From IMG/VR virus record IMGVR_UViG_3300027538_000185, positions 1-42,265 of that record: 42,265 bases of DNA; one strand, 5' to 3'. Both the position numbers and the translations under genes were made by a program. Below, piece by piece: positions 31,674 through 41,353 of the stretch (positions are counted from its first letter, which is position 1; each line of letters begins with the position of its first letter). This DNA is from a virus. A model generated the notes under the pieces. That model saw only the letters and a program-made list of their open reading frames with translations, ran no database searches and was not told the origin of the DNA.

Positions 31674-32241
31674 ACTTGGACGCCGGTTTGGCCGCAGGCA
31701 TAGCCTGGCCATCTCATCGGCTGGCGAGGCCATAAGAGCGCTGGCGGCCAATTTCCCGGCTTTTGAGCGGGAACTGGTGGCCTCAGGAGAGCGTGGTGTG
31801 GGCTACCGCGTGCTGGCTGGTCGTGAGGCGTTGACACTGGATCGTCTGCATGAGCCGACAGGACAGAGCCGCATCACCATTGCCCCGGTGGTCTCTGGTG
31901 CAGGTGGTAATGGCCTCGGTCAGATCTTGCTGGGTGCAGCCTTATTGGCAGTCGCTTGGTGGAACCCGTTGGGCTGGGCGGCGTCGGGCGCGTTTTTGTC
32001 ACAGGCCACGCTCTACTCGGTAGGCACAGCCATGATTCTTGGTGGCGTGGCGCAGATGATTGCGCCTACGCCGAAGGCCACGGAGCCCTCAGAGCGCCCA
32101 GAAAACAAGCCAAGCTACAGCTTCAATGGTGCTGTCAACACCACCGCCCAGGGGCATCCCGTGCCGGTGGGTTACGGCCGATTGATTGTGGGCTCAGCGG
32201 TGATCAGCGCCGGCATTGACGTGGATGAGATTGCCGCATGA
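31648..32241 (+). CDS. tail assembly protein I-like
   Basis: A 197-residue lambda gpI-like protein. ATG 31648 (MVTIILLGELGRRFGRRH) starts inside the last codons of the K-like gene, as in lambda. The N-terminus is a ubiquitin-like fold, then a Gly/Ala-rich hydrophobic stretch (LGQILLGAALLAVAWW, about 91-106) and the conserved end FNGAVNTTAQGHPVPVGYG, IVGSAVISAGI. It acts in tail-tip assembly and is usually not kept in the virion. Confidence 0.9.
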   Translation: MVTIILLGELGRRFGRRHSLAISSAGEAIRALAANFPAFERELVASGERGVGYRVLAGREALTLDRLHEPTGQSRITIAPVVSGAGGNGLGQILLGAALLAVAWWNPLGWAASGAFLSQATLYSVGTAMILGGVAQMIAPTPKATEPSERPENKPSYSFNGAVNTTAQGHPVPVGYGRLIVGSAVISAGIDVDEIAA

Positions 32242-35200
32242 AAAAACACGCCATGACTGAACTCATCATTGGTGCGGGCGGTGGCGGCAAAGGCGGTGGA
32301 GGTAGCGCTCGTGTGGCGCAGGAGGCTCCCGACAGCCTGCGTTCCAAAGCCTATGCGCGAGTGGTTGACCTCATTTCCGAGGGTGAGATCGAGGGGCTGG
32401 TCGACGGCCTGCAATCGGTTTACCTGGACGACACGCCGATTCAGAACCCTGATGGCTCGACCAACTTCTCAGGCGTCACTCTGGAGACCCGTAACGGCAG
32501 CCAGCAGCAAAGCTATGTGCCCGGGTTCTCGTCCGTTGAGAACGAGGTGGTCGTCGGAGTAGAGGCCAAGGCGAGCCAGCCGGTGGTGCGCTCCATCACC
32601 GACCCGGATGTGGACGCCGTTCGGGTCAAGGTGAGCGTGCCGCAGTTGACCAACCAGGACACGACCAATGGCGATCTCAATGGCAGCACGGTGAACTTTG
32701 CGATCGATCGCCAAGTGAACGGCGGTGGGTTCGTGGAGATGATCAACGACACGATCTCTGGCAAGACTACGACCAAGTACCAGCGCAGCTACTACGTGCC
32801 TCTCACGGGTAGTGGCCCCTGGGATATCCGAGTGCGCCGGATCACGGCGGACTCCACGTCAAGTGCGATCCAGAACAAGACCTTTGTGGAGTCCTACACC
32901 GAGGTCATCGAGAGCAAGCTGCGCTACCCCAACAGTGCCCTGGTAGCGCTTCGGGTCGATGCGTCCCAGTTCTCAAGCATCCCGCGGCGCAGTTATGACA
33001 TGAAGTTGCTGCGGGTTCGCGTTCCTGTGAACTACGACACCGCCACGCGCGCTTACAGCGGTGTGTGGAATGGCACTTTCAAGATCGCCTGGACCGATAA
33101 CCCTGCCTGGTGCTTTTACGACCTGGTGACCAGCACCCGCTATGGCTTGGGTGGCTACATCCCTGAAGCCCAAGTCGACAAGTGGGCGCTCTACCGGGTG
33201 GCTCAATACTGCGACCAGTTGGTTCCCAACGGGCTGGGCGGTTTTGAGCCGCGTTTTGCTTGCAACCTGTACCTCCAGACGCGGGAGCAGGCCTACAAGG
33301 TCGTGCAGGACATGGCCTCAATCTTTCGGGGCATGGTGTACTGGTCCGGTGGCGCAATCACGGTCACGCAGGATGCGCCCGCCGATCCGGTCTACCAATT
33401 CGCCCCTAGCAACGTCGTGGACGGAGAATTTGCGTATCAGGGGTCTTCGGCGAAGGCGCGGCACACGGTGGCCTTGGTCACATGGAACGACCCCGAAGAC
33501 TTTTATCGCCAGAAGGTGGAGTACGTCGAGGACGCCGCCGGCATCGCCCGCTACGGTATCGTGCAGAGCGAAGTGGTGGCCCTGGGATGCACCTCTCGGG
33601 GTCAGGCGCACCGGGTGGGTAAGTGGCTCTTGTATTCCGAGCAGTCGGAATCTGAGATCGTCACCTTCCGCACGGGCCTGGAGGGGGCCGTGGTGCGTCC
33701 GGGGGATATCATCAAGGTTGCTGATCCAGTTCGAGGGGGCATGCGCCTTGGGGGCCGGATCGCTGCGGCATCTGCCAGCACGGTCACCTTGGATCAGGAC
33801 CTGCCAGCGGATCTCCCATGGCGGCTATCGGTGATTCTGCCCACTGGGGTGGTTGAGGAGCGGCTGGTAGGTCCGATTTCGGGTCGAGCCCTGACGGTGA
33901 CGATCCCCTTCAGTGCGGTGCCGCAGGCTGGCGCCATTTGGGTGCTTTCCTCGTCTATCATCGAACCGCAACTCTTTCGGGTGGTTGCGGTCGCCGAGCG
34001 GGATCCTGGGGTGCACGAGGTCACCGCACTCGCTCACAACCCGAGCAAGTTCGATGCGATTGAAAAGGGGCTGGCTTTGCAGCCCCGATCGATCACCGTC
34101 CTGTCGGATATGCCACCAGCACCGACTGGGCTCTCCATGCAGGAGAGCTTGTACCGGGTCAAAGACCAGGCCCAGGTGCTGGTTCAGGTGTCCTGGAACG
34201 AGGTGCAGACCGCTGTTGCGTACCGGCTCTCCTACCGGGTGGCAGGCGGCAACTTCGTGAGCCTTCCGCTCACCAGTGCCAACTACGTCGAAATCCGGGA
34301 TGCGCAAGAAGGCGCGTATGAATTCAGCCTGCGTGCGATCGGGATCACGCGCAAGGAGAGTGTTCCTGCGACACTGAGCACAACGGTTCTGGGCAAGACC
34401 CTGCCGCCGTCGGATGTCACGGGCTTTTCGGTCCAGCGCCGAGTCTCCGATCTGCTGATTTCTTGGGATGAACTCCAAGATGCAGACCTTTCGGGCTACG
34501 AGGTCCGTGTAGGAACTGGCTGGGATAACGGCCAGTTGGTGGCAAAGACCGCGGGCACGCAGATGGTCCACGACCAGAGCGCGGCTGGCCTTTACCCGTA
34601 TCACATTCGGGCCTACGACACTTCGGGCAATTACAGCGCCCACGTCACAACCTTTGTGCTGAGCCTACAAGCGCCCTCGACCGTGCGTCAGTTCGATGTG
34701 GTTCAGTCGGCCAACCGGCTAGAGTTTCGGTGGCAGCCCAATCCTGAACCCGAAGTTGTCGGGTATGAGCTTCGTGAGGGCGCGGCCTGGGATGCCTCGC
34801 TCTTTGTGGCTGAGGTCAAGTCCACCAGCTACACGCTGCCCTCAGGGTTTGATGGAGAGCGCAAGTTTTGGATCAAGGCGATTGCGTCCCCAGGCATCTA
34901 CAGTGACACGCCGACCTTTGTGTCGACGGTGGTTGCTCAGCCGCAGAACGCCAATTTGATCTTGGCACGTGATGAGCAGGCGCTGGGATTCCCTGGCACT
35001 AAGCACTTCGCTTCGGTCGTCTCGGTCAACGGTCGAAACGCCCTGCGTATGAGCACCGGTGCACAGACGGCTGAGTACCTCTTTGAGGTGGATCTTGTTT
35101 CACCCATCCGCGCCCAGAACACGCTGCTCAATAGCCTTGGGGCCTCGGTTGATGACCGGACCACATGGCTGGAGGCGAATTTCCCTTGGAGCAGCGATGC

Positions 35201-35753
35201 TGCGAGGCGCCAGTGGGCCTATGACGGCGCGATTGCCAACGTGGATGCGCGGTTTCAAATCGCAAGGGAAGACGCACTGCAAGCCGGCGAAGTCTACGGA
35301 TGGCGTCTGAACGGTTCTACCGCGGGGCTAGGAAATCCAGTCTCGAGCCAGGCGGCAGGCGTCGCCTATGCCGCCGGCCGATATGGCGACGGTCTCATGG
35401 TCAAAGACACCACCCGCGTGGCTTGGACGGTGAGCATCCCATCGGTGTTTCACACCTCCTTTTGGTTCATCCCGTCAGAGGTCACAACCTGCGTGATCTG
35501 GGTGGCTCTTGGCACCGCAGGATCGCTCCTGGTGGGCTATGACGCCACGACGGGTGCGTTCTTTCTCGAAGACCAACTGTCCAGACGAGTGAGCGTGCCT
35601 TTTGGCATTTCGGTAACTGATCGCGTTTGCATCGGCGTGTGCCAGACCGCCACCGAGCGACGGCTATTTGTCGGTCGGATGGGCGGTGATGTGGACTCAG
35701 CCAGTTCGGCACTTGCGCCAATCGGAGCCGTTACCAGCTTGCGTCTGTACTAG
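32238..35753 (+). CDS. central tail tip / host specificity protein J
   Basis: A 1171-residue protein aligning with lambda gpJ in order: ARVVDLISEGEIEGLVDGLQ, RQVNGG, ESYTEVIESKLRYPNSALVAL, WCFYDLVTSTRYGLG and VALGCTSRGQAHRVGKWLLY. Three fibronectin-III-like domains follow (about 625-900). The last 170 residues look like a LamG/concanavalin-type domain (WRLNGSTAG to TSLRLY), a likely receptor-binding end. The start is ATG 32238 (overlapping the I-like stop) or ATG 32253, where MTELIIGAGGGGKGG begins. It should form the tail tip that contacts the host surface. Confidence 0.93.
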   Translation: MKKHAMTELIIGAGGGGKGGGGSARVAQEAPDSLRSKAYARVVDLISEGEIEGLVDGLQSVYLDDTPIQNPDGSTNFSGVTLETRNGSQQQSYVPGFSSVENEVVVGVEAKASQPVVRSITDPDVDAVRVKVSVPQLTNQDTTNGDLNGSTVNFAIDRQVNGGGFVEMINDTISGKTTTKYQRSYYVPLTGSGPWDIRVRRITADSTSSAIQNKTFVESYTEVIESKLRYPNSALVALRVDASQFSSIPRRSYDMKLLRVRVPVNYDTATRAYSGVWNGTFKIAWTDNPAWCFYDLVTSTRYGLGGYIPEAQVDKWALYRVAQYCDQLVPNGLGGFEPRFACNLYLQTREQAYKVVQDMASIFRGMVYWSGGAITVTQDAPADPVYQFAPSNVVDGEFAYQGSSAKARHTVALVTWNDPEDFYRQKVEYVEDAAGIARYGIVQSEVVALGCTSRGQAHRVGKWLLYSEQSESEIVTFRTGLEGAVVRPGDIIKVADPVRGGMRLGGRIAAASASTVTLDQDLPADLPWRLSVILPTGVVEERLVGPISGRALTVTIPFSAVPQAGAIWVLSSSIIEPQLFRVVAVAERDPGVHEVTALAHNPSKFDAIEKGLALQPRSITVLSDMPPAPTGLSMQESLYRVKDQAQVLVQVSWNEVQTAVAYRLSYRVAGGNFVSLPLTSANYVEIRDAQEGAYEFSLRAIGITRKESVPATLSTTVLGKTLPPSDVTGFSVQRRVSDLLISWDELQDADLSGYEVRVGTGWDNGQLVAKTAGTQMVHDQSAAGLYPYHIRAYDTSGNYSAHVTTFVLSLQAPSTVRQFDVVQSANRLEFRWQPNPEPEVVGYELREGAAWDASLFVAEVKSTSYTLPSGFDGERKFWIKAIASPGIYSDTPTFVSTVVAQPQNANLILARDEQALGFPGTKHFASVVSVNGRNALRMSTGAQTAEYLFEVDLVSPIRAQNTLLNSLGASVDDRTTWLEANFPWSSDAARRQWAYDGAIANVDARFQIAREDALQAGEVYGWRLNGSTAGLGNPVSSQAAGVAYAAGRYGDGLMVKDTTRVAWTVSIPSVFHTSFWFIPSEVTTCVIWVALGTAGSLLVGYDATTGAFFLEDQLSRRVSVPFGISVTDRVCIGVCQTATERRLFVGRMGGDVDSASSALAPIGAVTSLRLY

Positions 35754-37645: not shown

Positions 37646-38605
37646 ATGCAAAACTTCACCGATATACCGTCGTCCAGAACGCTGTCCGATTCTCTGATCG
37701 AGATTCTTAACAACGATAAGACGGCCATTTCATGCAACAGCGGCACCACCTTCCCGACGACCAACCTTCAGATCGGGATGCTGTGCTACCGCACTGACCA
37801 GTTGAAGCTCTACCAGTTGATCGGGACCAACCCGGATAACTGGCGCTTCATCATGGATTTGGCAAGCGGCATTGATACGCAGTTCGCAGCCAAGCTCAAT
37901 GCCTCGAGCTACACGGCAGCCGATGTTCTGGCGAAGTTGCTGACAGTGGATGGTGCAGGTACTGGACTGGATGCCGACCTGCTCGATGGTCAGCATGCGA
38001 GCGCTTTTGCTGCGAGCACACACAACCACAACGCCGCCTATCTCGGCATCAGCGCCAAGGCCGCCGATGCTGACAAGCTCGATGGCTATGACTCCACCGC
38101 GTTTGTGAGGTCGGTCAACGGTGCCGGGCCTGATGCCGCTGGCAATGCGACGGTCAACATTGACCTGTCGAGCCGGGTCGCAAAGACCGGCGACACGATG
38201 ACGGGGAATCTGACGATTCAGAACACCGCCCCAACTATCAATATGCAGGACACGGACAACGTGACCCGCTATCTGCATGTCAACAGCAACCTGATGGGCT
38301 TTTTAAAGTCCGATGGCAACTGGGACATGTACATGAACAACAGTGGATCTATGTGGACCGCGAACTACGGGTGGTTGCATGACTACTTTTTCAGCACCAT
38401 CGCCAACTGTTTTGTTGGCAACTGCCCGGGTAATACAGGCAACTGCAGCCCGGTGGGCAACAACGCAACATCCGTAGTTTCTAACTGCGGCAGCGCATCT
38501 TTTGTGCGCGATGAGCTGGTGGACAACGGCAGCCAGATTTCTGTCCGAAGAACACAGTACAACTTCAACTGCAATTGCAACTGTGCTTGCGACTGCTGCT
38601 GCTGA
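37646..38605 (+). CDS. tail-fibre-like protein with Cys/Asn-rich C-terminus
   Basis: A 319-residue fibre protein starting directly after the repeat protein's stop. The middle has tail-fibre repeats (LDADLLDGQHASAFAAS, DADKLDGYDSTAF) and an HNHN stretch. The C-terminal 68 residues hold 11 cysteines at 255, 260, 267, 281, 309, 311, 313, 315, 317, 318 and 319; seven are preceded by Asn. The protein ends NFNCNCNCACDCCC. Such a tail is unlike a structural fibre and resembles a RiPP core or a metal-binding tail. Its stop overlaps a start (TGATG) of the next gene, which is followed by an oxygenase and a radical SAM enzyme. It is the best candidate substrate of those enzymes; this is inference. Confidence 0.85.
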   Translation: MQNFTDIPSSRTLSDSLIEILNNDKTAISCNSGTTFPTTNLQIGMLCYRTDQLKLYQLIGTNPDNWRFIMDLASGIDTQFAAKLNASSYTAADVLAKLLTVDGAGTGLDADLLDGQHASAFAASTHNHNAAYLGISAKAADADKLDGYDSTAFVRSVNGAGPDAAGNATVNIDLSSRVAKTGDTMTGNLTIQNTAPTINMQDTDNVTRYLHVNSNLMGFLKSDGNWDMYMNNSGSMWTANYGWLHDYFFSTIANCFVGNCPGNTGNCSPVGNNATSVVSNCGSASFVRDELVDNGSQISVRRTQYNFNCNCNCACDCCC

Positions 38606-38616
38606 TGGGGGCGACC

Positions 38617-39396
38617 ATGAAAGTCATTGCAGTACGCAACCCGCTTCTTCATCCCTATGCATTCCATCAAGTCTCCATCTCGCGCGAGTTGCAAAGCAGG
38701 TCGTTGATCGTTCGATACCGGTTGGCCAGAACAAATCATGCTGAAGAGGATCCTGTCTTTGATGCAGAAGAACAGGAGGTGCGGGTCAATCTGGCAGCGC
38801 TCAGAAACCGCCCCGACTGGTGCGACCACCAGTGCTATTTCGTGTCGCTCAAGGATGGGCGTTTGGGGCCGCTTTTCTCCCTCTTTGTGGCTACGCTTCC
38901 TGCCCGTCTTGCTGCAACTGAGTTTGCAACGATGTCGCAGCAGAGTTTGATTCTGGGAATCAATGTGCAGTTTGCCGACGCCACGGACGACGAGCTGTTT
39001 CTGACCGTCAACATGAACCAGCGATGCCGCGACGCTGATATCTCAGTTGACGGTGATTTGGCTCTTGAGTGGAGCCAGGCGGCTTCAAGCGGAACACACA
39101 GAACCTTATTGCTGCCGCACCTGCGCTTGTCGGCTCCGTCAACCATCGCAGCCGATGGCCAGGCAACGATCACTATTCAGCTTGAGGACGCTGCTGAACA
39201 CCCGATTGAAAGGCAGGCAACCGTCTATCTGGAAGCGGTCTCAGGTGTATTACCTCGGGCCAGGGTCACCACCATTCAGGGCACTGCCGCCGTCCCTGTA
39301 TTTGCCACTGGTTTGAGCCCAGGTGAGCAGGTTCGCATCAAAGCAGGCTGGAAGTACTTTCCCGGCGTGGACGACATCACGATTGAGGTTGTCTGA
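38617..39396 (+). CDS. Ig-like-domain protein of the fibre operon
   Basis: A 259-residue protein without a recognised enzyme motif. The last 85 residues look like a bacterial Ig-like (Big_1/invasin) domain: LSAPSTIAADGQATITIQLED, ATVYLEAVSGVL and VRIKAGWKYFPGVDDITIEV. The N-terminal part is beta-rich, with RPDWCDHQCYFVSL and VNMNQRCRDADIS. ATG 38617 follows a GGGGG stretch; an in-frame ATG 38605 overlaps the fibre stop and could also be used. It may attach to the fibre or present it to the modifying enzymes. Its stop overlaps the next start as TGATG. Confidence 0.75.
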   Translation: MKVIAVRNPLLHPYAFHQVSISRELQSRSLIVRYRLARTNHAEEDPVFDAEEQEVRVNLAALRNRPDWCDHQCYFVSLKDGRLGPLFSLFVATLPARLAATEFATMSQQSLILGINVQFADATDDELFLTVNMNQRCRDADISVDGDLALEWSQAASSGTHRTLLLPHLRLSAPSTIAADGQATITIQLEDAAEHPIERQATVYLEAVSGVLPRARVTTIQGTAAVPVFATGLSPGEQVRIKAGWKYFPGVDDITIEVV

Positions 39397-39953
39397 TGCT
39401 CCAAGCGCTGTTTGCGGTCCCAGTCCTCGTAACAGAACTGGGCATATCTGAACGCGAACGCAGCGTTCTCTGCGAGTGTGCCCTGGCCGCATACCGGGCC
39501 AACAACACGAACGGGAAACCCTGGTCTAGAGCTAACCGGGAGTCTCTGGCAGTCCAAGAGCCGGTTTTTGAGGCTCTCTTTGCCATGGTCGCTAGGGCGG
39601 CAGAAGTTGCATTTGGGGTCCGTGTCGTATCCATCACCGGTCGCGAACTGGTTCAGTTTGATGGCGATTTTGTCCCTCCGCATGTTGAGCCATCTATGCT
39701 GTCTGCCATCTACTGGATAGATGCCGCAGCTGAACCCAAGCATGCGTGTGGGGATCACAACGGATCGCTGGTCCTTCAAAGCCCAGTGGGCCCCTTTGGC
39801 ACCAAGGTACTGCCAACTGAGGAGAGGGTTCGGTTCATCGATCCGATGCCTGATCGCCTACTGGTTTTTCCAAGCCATCTGGTGCACTTTGGCCACGTCT
39901 ACCGTGCGCCGACACCAAGCGTCGAGGTTCACTTCGAAATGGAGATTGCGTGA
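39396..39953 (+). CDS. 2-oxoglutarate/Fe(II) oxygenase-like protein
   Basis: A 185-residue protein with the core of the 2OG-Fe(II) oxygenase fold (PF13759-like). The proximal ligands are H96-x-E98 in PPHVEPSMLSAIYWID, the distal histidine is within FPSHLVHFGHVY (H161, H164 or H167), and R170 or a later basic residue could bind 2-oxoglutarate. GSLVLQSP is the conserved strand between them. Typical substrates of relatives are amino-acid side chains such as Pro, Asp or Asn. The setting between a Cys/Asn-rich fibre and a radical SAM enzyme suggests side-chain hydroxylation of the fibre. The ligand set H-x-E is less common than H-x-D, so activity needs proof. Confidence 0.75.
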   Translation: MLQALFAVPVLVTELGISERERSVLCECALAAYRANNTNGKPWSRANRESLAVQEPVFEALFAMVARAAEVAFGVRVVSITGRELVQFDGDFVPPHVEPSMLSAIYWIDAAAEPKHACGDHNGSLVLQSPVGPFGTKVLPTEERVRFIDPMPDRLLVFPSHLVHFGHVYRAPTPSVEVHFEMEIA

Positions 39954-39985: not shown

Positions 39986-41353
39986 ATGAGTACTTTTGTC
40001 ATTCATACCGTCATTCCGGGCGGACCAGCTGGTCCAACCCTCCGATACGACAACCAGACCTCGGAACTCACCAACCTGCAAACCGGGCAGCCGGTTGTGA
40101 GGTCCTTTGCGGCCGTCCAGCCCGCAAGTCAACCTTTCGCCACCAGCAAAGACACCCCGGCTCGAAAAGATTCGCCTCGGGTCTTGAAGATCTCTCTTGG
40201 CCTGTCATGCAATTACGAGTGTGAGTACTGTTCTCAGCGCTTTGTGCCACGCGCGGCTGAGACGAATCCTGCTGAAGTTCACGCCTTCGTTGCGGGGCTA
40301 GATGGATGGGTGACCGTGCCGCCAGAGCGTATTGAGTTCTGGGGCGGGGAGCCCCTGGTTTACACCAAGACCCTGCGTCCGCTCGCTAACGCCCTTCGTC
40401 GTAAGTATCCAGACGCTGGCTTTTCAGTGATCACCAACGGATCACTGCTGAACGCCGACATCAATCAATGGCTGGATGACATGGGCTTTAGTGTTGGCAT
40501 CTCTCACGATGGTCCGGGGCAGCATGTGCGAGGGCCTGATCCACTTGATGACCCTGAAAAGCGCGCAGCGATATTGGATCTTTATCGGCGACTCGCACCG
40601 AAGAGGCGTGTGAGCTTCAATGCAATGCTCAACCGCGCAAACATCTCCAGGGCCGCGATTCAGCAGTTCTTCACCGATCTGACCGGAGACCTGGACGTCA
40701 TGATCGCCGAGGGCGCATTTGTTGATGCTTACGACCCGGGTGGCTTGGCGCTGTCTCTGCCTTCTGATGAAGCGCAAGCATTTCGTCGGACGGCCTTCCA
40801 GGAGATCCGTCAGGGCAAGGCGGACAGGGTTTCCGGTGCAAGGGATCGGGTTGCCTCCTTCGTTAACTCCATCCGCCTACAACGTCCTGCATCCAGTGTG
40901 GCGCAAAAGTGTGGCATGGATCACACCGATTCGATAGCGGTTGATCTTCGCGGCAATGTGCTGACCTGCCAAAACGTTAGCGCTCAGTCAATCGCTCCAA
41001 ATGGCGAGAGTCACCGAATTGGACATGTCAGCGATCTTGCGTCGGTGGCGCTGCGCACCTCAACGCATTGGTCCAAGCGCGAAGACTGTCCAAAGTGCCC
41101 TGTGCTTCACATCTGCAAAGGGGCATGCATGTTCTTGGAAGGGTCGCTTTGGGAGGCGTCCTGCAATAACGCGTACTCAGATGCGTTGCCGATCTTTGCT
41201 GCGGGGATCGAATTTCTGAGTGGGCTGGTGCCGGTCTACATAGAAGGCGACCTACCTGAACTCCGAAAGGACGTTTTCGGATTTTCTGAGCAGGTGAAAC
41301 CATATCGGGAAAGACCGCCTAGGGTTTTTCCGATCCCGGTCGTCGCAGCCTGA
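39986..41353 (+). CDS. radical SAM/SPASM peptide-modifying enzyme
   Basis: A 455-residue radical SAM enzyme. The [4Fe-4S] motif CNYECEYC has C75, C79 and C82; WGGEPL (119-124) and the ITNGSL strand (149-154) follow. The C-terminal SPASM domain has C309, C328 (in RGNVLTC), then C368-x2-C371-x5-C377-x3-C381 and C393, a full seven-Cys set for two auxiliary clusters. Family members form thioether or C-C cross-links, or oxidise Cys/Ser to formylglycine, in protein substrates. The first 60 residues are extra; I see no clear RRE domain. ATG 39986 follows AGGAAA. The Cys-rich fibre encoded 1.4 kb upstream is the obvious substrate candidate. Confidence 0.93.
   Translation: MSTFVIHTVIPGGPAGPTLRYDNQTSELTNLQTGQPVVRSFAAVQPASQPFATSKDTPARKDSPRVLKISLGLSCNYECEYCSQRFVPRAAETNPAEVHAFVAGLDGWVTVPPERIEFWGGEPLVYTKTLRPLANALRRKYPDAGFSVITNGSLLNADINQWLDDMGFSVGISHDGPGQHVRGPDPLDDPEKRAAILDLYRRLAPKRRVSFNAMLNRANISRAAIQQFFTDLTGDLDVMIAEGAFVDAYDPGGLALSLPSDEAQAFRRTAFQEIRQGKADRVSGARDRVASFVNSIRLQRPASSVAQKCGMDHTDSIAVDLRGNVLTCQNVSAQSIAPNGESHRIGHVSDLASVALRTSTHWSKREDCPKCPVLHICKGACMFLEGSLWEASCNNAYSDALPIFAAGIEFLSGLVPVYIEGDLPELRKDVFGFSEQVKPYRERPPRVFPIPVVAA

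Follow-up and report, generated by a model that had tools for sequence, protein, structure and literature searches.

Many freshwater phages carry, to judge from their sequences, a tail fibre ending in repeated Asn-Cys pairs, and a dedicated phage radical SAM/SPASM maturase acting on the fibre tip very probably uses these dyads as its substrate units. This points to a chemical modification of the viral tip that has so far gone undescribed. The case is comparative, built on a dyad that is conserved, variable in copy number, C-terminal and almost always found upstream of, on the same strand as and near members of one enzyme family, whatever the scaffold that carries it. The proposed maturase would act after translation, on the dyads of the distal C-terminal fibre tip. 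Radical SAM/SPASM enzymes have so far been associated with small peptides and with a handful of cellular proteins. In the present case, one is linked to the part of the virion that contacts the receptor, in many phages and prophages, which, if true, would amount to a new kind of virion maturation by radical chemistry. No description of a radical SAM enzyme paired with a Cys-rich phage fibre was found in the open-access PMC literature, which is a weak form of absence.

The window, a virus record of 42,265 bases, has the gene order of a tailed phage. The fibre (P0001, 319 aa) is encoded on the + strand at 37646..38605 and is a candidate receptor-binding tip with Asn-Cys dyads at its C-terminus. 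It matches tail fibre families in a PHROGs profile search (best 5.7e-10) and lies downstream of a 1171-aa tail-tip ORF (32238-35753) that looks J-like on reading its sequence, and this combination of fibre-family homology and gene order identifies it as a predicted phage tail fibre or receptor-binding protein. DNA positions 38399-38605 translate into residues 252-319 and the stop codon, and the protein ends ANCFVGNCPGNTGNCSPVGNNATSVVSNCGSASFVRDELVDNGSQISVRRTQYNFNCNCNCACDCCC. There are 11 Cys in this segment (255, 260, 267, 281, 309, 311, 313, 315, 317, 318 and 319), seven of which (255, 260, 267, 281, 309, 311 and 313) directly follow Asn. These counts are exactly those of the first-pass annotation, as are the DCCC end and the 27 residues that separate the two groups. 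The first group consists of four isolated dyads (N254-C255, N259-C260, N266-C267 and N280-C281; 38405..38488, + strand) and the second is a tandem cluster, NCNCNCACDCCC, which occupies residues 308-319 (38567..38602, + strand) and thus the very end of the protein, while the remaining two Cys of P0001 (C30 and C47) have no Asn in front. Seven or more pairs were obtained in 51 of 200,000 composition-preserving shuffles of 68 residues with 12 Asn and 11 Cys. Together with the homologue counts given below, this rules out a chance origin, related sequences being handled in the shuffle and pair statistics by simple redundancy filters. A 41.5-kb contig from a Limnohabitans MAG (L168) encodes the same C-terminus of the fibre and an enzyme with 100% identity, which makes Limnohabitans or a close relative the probable host. 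No near match to the DNA of the region was found among 50,697 phage records, nor any match to a short NC query, such sequence being masked or absent there.

Viral contigs scanned both with the fibre and with the downstream enzyme gave ~160 loci, to which later scans added more. Choosing substrates by Cys density alone was dropped because it picked many out-of-frame ORFs, in favour of homology to the N-terminal part of the fibre and of an independent scan by DNA pattern. Homologues were thus selected by fibre residues 1-235 only, excluding the Cys region, and 189 of the 198 complete proteins contain three or more NC. In 36 nonredundant homologous tails, Asn precedes 77/90 isolated Cys (86%) and 95/157 clustered Cys (61%), for an Asn content of 11% in the tails compared, and it stands before Cys in only 23/852 cases in other, unrelated ORFs at these loci. 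The dyads are kept although tip sequences diverge strongly among phages. The first-pass annotation had proposed aligning homologous fibres to see whether the Asn is conserved and the copy number varies, and the outcome went its way on both points: Asn before Cys is not freely replaced, and the dyad is retained while its number ranges from 2 to 19 per protein. The rule is looser in the tandem run, where Ala, Asp, Gln or Cys takes the place of Asn in about 40% of cases.

The dyad is conserved as a unit. The nonsynonymous share of changed codons is 40% for the Asn of NC and 37% for Cys (88% for other Asn and 61% for other residues), in a pairwise comparison whose pairs are mutually dependent and in which misalignment raises the first two figures. 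Since 74 distinct homologous tails use both Asn codons (AAC 303, AAT 163) and both Cys codons (TGC 371, TGT 95), a DNA-level repeat is ruled out and selection acts on the motif as protein. Information near isolated Cys amounts to 2.32 bits at position -1 and to 0.41 at most at every other position, values computed on a set selected for NC density (the unbiased figure is the above proportion of isolated Cys that follow Asn). Because information is almost confined to -1, the Asn-Cys code reads as a bare dyad.

The proposed maturase (P0002, 455 aa; 39986..41353, + strand) is encoded by a gene that begins 1.4 kb downstream of the fibre gene. Profile matches to Pfam Radical_SAM (30.6 bits, above the cut-off), to SPASM TIGR04085 (32.9 bits for a cut-off of 27) and to phrog_1802 in PHROGs (2.9e-59, residues 58-410) place it among radical SAM/SPASM proteins and in phrog_1802. 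The radical SAM cluster motif C75-X3-C79-X2-C82 (40208..40231, + strand) is invariant in 36 diverse relatives. The seven Cys of the SPASM motif C309-X13-G-X4-C328 ... C368-X2-C371-X5-C377-X3-C381 ... C393 (40910..41164, + strand) are 97-100% conserved in an alignment of P0002 relatives (alignment A2). Besides these ten cluster Cys, none is present in more than 30% of sequences per column among the 36 relatives (down to 26% identity), and alignment A2 offers no candidate for an eighth Cys ligand of the SPASM clusters. The AlphaFold model is confident (pLDDT 91.1), and its nearest solved fold is that of the thioether-forming CteB (5why, E 5e-12), followed by anSME, ChlB, SkfB and others at 14-18% identity, with EpeE also among the neighbours. 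Because these are peptide or protein maturases with varied chemistry, the modelled fold alone does not fix the reaction of P0002. No RRE/PqqD domain was matched by Pfam, and the model shows just three short N-terminal strands in its place. All the profile matches shown to named maturase families are under their cut-offs, the best being PapB (56.5 vs 340 bits).

A strong argument in favour of the dyad as the substrate unit is its genomic linkage to this enzyme. Enzymes fell into 85 clusters, and 69 nonredundant loci with at least 5 kb of upstream DNA were counted. In 60/69 of them, an NC-dense ORF occurs no further than 6 kb from the radical SAM gene and on its strand, as against none of the 80 control loci. 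The position of such ORFs is almost invariably upstream (62, as against 3 downstream). The nine loci with no qualifying ORF count against our preferred reading, at least three of them being near misses (an overlapping start in L074, and two dyads each in L278 and L298). A second scan, blind to the enzyme, looked for the DNA pattern of NCNCNCNC in viral contigs and found it inside an ORF at no fewer than 66 loci. Among the matches listed, 26 have at least 5 kb of downstream DNA and are therefore testable, and in 25 of these 26 there is a radical SAM gene of the P0002 family on the same strand, a few of these enzymes having weak or partial profile scores. The ORF of the one locus without it (L392) is probably spurious. 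In a control scan with GCGCGCGC, none of the 15 testable loci among the matches listed has such an enzyme. The pairing spans unrelated scaffolds and enzymes down to ~30% identity and, in genomes of alpha- and betaproteobacteria or in their prophages, is seen at 30-45% enzyme identity. Fibre homologues in the Pseudomonas phages Itty13 and Dolphis end, on reading their sequences, in an S74-like chaperone domain and have no dyads, and no radical SAM gene is annotated within 4 kb of them. The suggestion in the first-pass annotation that Asn-Cys might be a unit recognized or cross-linked by a radical SAM enzyme has thus gained substance, in that one specific SPASM family is genomically linked to the motif.

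These data bear directly on the most conservative scenario, a plain disulfide-rich tip with a compositional bias for Asn, in which the link to the enzyme would be mere synteny within a single phage lineage. Tips rich in Asn and Gly are common in fibres and many of the loci are closely related, both of which would suit this idea. It is nonetheless very improbable: the dyad exceeds compositional expectation, other Asn of the same tails are not conserved, and the link holds with unrelated scaffolds, with enzymes at 30-45% identity and in the enzyme-blind scan, so that synteny within the fibre lineage alone is ruled out.

Unrelated scaffolds take several forms, fibres with a Hint domain among them. 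Partners of the enzyme that have no fibre homology include proteins of 125-173 aa with up to 19 dyads (L071-L081) and, in Thalassobacter, proteins of 94-96 aa. In Parasutterella, the partner of an enzyme ~30% identical to P0002 is a protein with an Mtd_N domain (major tropism determinant) in which Cys follows Tyr, Gln, Val and others, and also Asn. At this locus in Parasutterella muris (L233:5033-6058), two adjacent Cys-rich proteins, one with Mtd_N, carry HCSYCSYCTYCSQC repeats near the radical SAM enzyme, and the residue before Cys departs from the Asn code. Four other loci (L335, L394, L329 and L370) have ORFs of 67-79 aa (...HTHLFYDDYSTNCNCNCNCACGRGSC) and enzymes with weak or partial profile matches, possibly a separate subfamily. 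In one locus (L171:6735-7778), the fibre frame is shifted ahead of the NC cluster (tail GGSPTCKDGK...), possibly a broken copy or an assembly error.

Of 198 distinct proteins within the fibre family, 173 have a cluster that ends no more than six residues before the C-terminus. A Hint-like CF directly follows it in 12 of the 198, and in a few further proteins (L082-L084) it precedes another C-terminal domain. The fibres of the Achromobacter phages JWF and 2-1 contain NCNCDCNCNCSCFPAGT and NCNCDCNCSCFPAGT, and Pfam detects a Hom_end_hint domain in the former phage. In both, the NC cluster abuts a Hint autoprocessing domain (JWF, L001:2503-3954; 2-1, L002:2635-4077), and a similar arrangement is seen in L046, L194, L224, L225, L227, L228 and L231. 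From what Hint chemistry would predict, this domain may cut at its first Cys in some phages, which would leave the NC tail as a new C-terminus.

A second alternative is that the Cys column binds a metal or an Fe-S cluster in a trimeric tip, Asn being structural only and the enzyme having another target. The tip of T4 gp37-type fibres, in which HxH repeats coordinate a column of iron, is the obvious parallel. HxH is absent from the translated tip of P0001, which has NC repeats instead, so the comparison fails on this point, but HxH-like stretches do occur beside NC in several tails (the L058 family). An alternating NCNCNC beta strand would present all its Cys on one face and, although the predicted structure of P0001 is poor (pLDDT 51), the low-confidence model has a beta hairpin running into the Cys cluster. 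What metal binding leaves unexplained is why isolated Cys beyond the tandem run also require Asn, and why there is a near-obligate link to one enzyme family over unrelated scaffolds, which makes it improbable in our opinion, if less so than plain disulfides.

If P0002 is indeed the maturase of the dyads, which reaction does it catalyse? A Cys-Asn thioether is the likeliest chemistry, by analogy with characterized systems, and we would rate it at just short of an even chance. It is favoured because Cys and Asn are equally constrained, SPASM Cys number seven, the fold is closest to CteB, epimerase-type Cys are missing and there are precedents in NxxcA and enteropeptin. An open Aux I site binds the substrate Cys in CteB, while anSME closes Aux I with an eighth Cys (PMC6231123), and in seven-Cys sactisynthases a free site able to bind the substrate Cys has been proposed and, for CteB, demonstrated (PMC6231123). 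The Cys sulphur might be joined to the alpha carbon of the neighbouring Asn, which would produce a six-membered thiomorpholinone like that of enteropeptins, or to its beta carbon, as in NxxcA, which has a Cys-Asn beta-thioether (PMC8326336). Enteropeptin, a thiomorpholine sactipeptide in which a six-membered ring connects Cys to the residue immediately before it (PMC12395415), is relevant because an adjacent dyad would need its ring geometry. It differs from the fibre in having N-methylornithine as acceptor, one ring and a short peptide. NCNCNC might thereby become a stiff, reduction-proof tip, which, if true, could explain the resistance of fibre tips to reduction and proteolysis. The fullest version, in which every dyad is closed into a Cys S-Asn ring, tandem NCNCNC tails are covalently laddered rigid tips and repeat number is a tunable length code, we consider rather unlikely. 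Several points weigh against the preferred explanation: seven SPASM Cys are also found in enzymes with other chemistry, Aux I could be closed by a non-Cys ligand that escaped detection, the frequent Asn replacement in the tandem part means that not every Cys can link to Asn, and Pfam finds no RRE-like recognition domain.

Alternatively, the enzyme could act on the dyads by another chemistry, such as epimerization of Asn or Cys, Cys oxidation as in anaerobic sulfatase maturation, or a C-C bond. This is a variant of the preferred explanation, compatible with its first half, and we regard it as a serious possibility that nevertheless falls clearly below even. The chemistry of SPASM enzymes is varied, the structural neighbours of P0002 include anSME and EpeE, alternating D,L residues would likewise give a rigid tip, and 2OG oxygenase-like genes are present at some loci. 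Radical SAM epimerases, however, require an extra catalytic Cys (PMC8326336), and none outside the clusters, as in EpeE/PoyD, was found among P0002 relatives in alignment A2. Moreover, Cys is conserved as much as Asn, which fits a Cys that is a bond partner, and the CxPxR sulfatase-type context was not found around dyad Cys.

Among known systems, the closest are ranthipeptide/SCIFF maturases (CteB, PapB and NxxcB), which share with P0002 a radical SAM plus SPASM make-up, CteB being the best solved fold and PapB the best NCBIfam profile by E-value. The NxxcA precursor joins Cys to Asn (PMC8326336), but the dyad in P0001 is adjacent rather than CX3D or NxxC. Unlike ranthipeptide or sactipeptide precursors, the candidate substrate is a large phage structural protein with no leader peptide. 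Because of this large leaderless fibre, of the undetected RRE and of scores that fall far short of family cut-offs, we do not file the system as ranthipeptide or sactipeptide, although it may still work like one. If the proposal is true, it would provide enzymes for simple, tandem, leaderless two-residue motifs, useful in protein stapling. In the maturation of quinohemoprotein amine dehydrogenase, the radical SAM/SPASM enzyme QhpD forms Cys thioethers in a protein subunit. P0002 has a weak match to the profile used for this comparison (TIGR03906, 6e-11), but the QhpD substrate is a bacterial enzyme subunit, its acceptors are Asp/Glu and there is no phage context. The family of P0002 itself, phrog_1802 ('radical SAM domain-containing protein'), is annotated only under the category 'other', and the open-access PMC literature searched proposes no substrate for it. 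It has members in the Achromobacter phages JWF and 2-1, which have the same arrangement with fibres showing NCNCDCNCNCSCF or NCNCDCNCSCF ahead of the Hint domain. These isolated phages and cultured Limnohabitans strains make the idea directly testable.

Two genes lie between fibre and enzyme. P0003 (259 aa; 38617..39396, + strand), which has weak similarity to a bacterial Ig-like domain (Big_1, Pfam), is found beside many, not all, such fibres. P0004 (185 aa; 39396..39953, + strand) is 2OG-Fe(II) oxygenase-like (phrog_81, 1.3e-7; PF13759, 0.0038, below the cut-off), has no tblastn match among the 50,697 phage records and is a possible accessory modifying enzyme. Similar oxygenase genes lie between fibre and radical SAM gene in L022, L092 and L149 (two in the latter). 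Limited to a subset of loci and not general, they may add a second modification.

Finally, the Erwinia phage Asesino (L003:12364-13157, record positions 144363-145156) has two Cys-rich proteins of 155 and 127 aa with 20-21 Cys, mostly in SC/GC (CSGCSGSCSGG), near the radical SAM genes gp180-181. This is perhaps a second phage pairing of radical SAM enzyme and Cys-rich protein, with a different residue before Cys.
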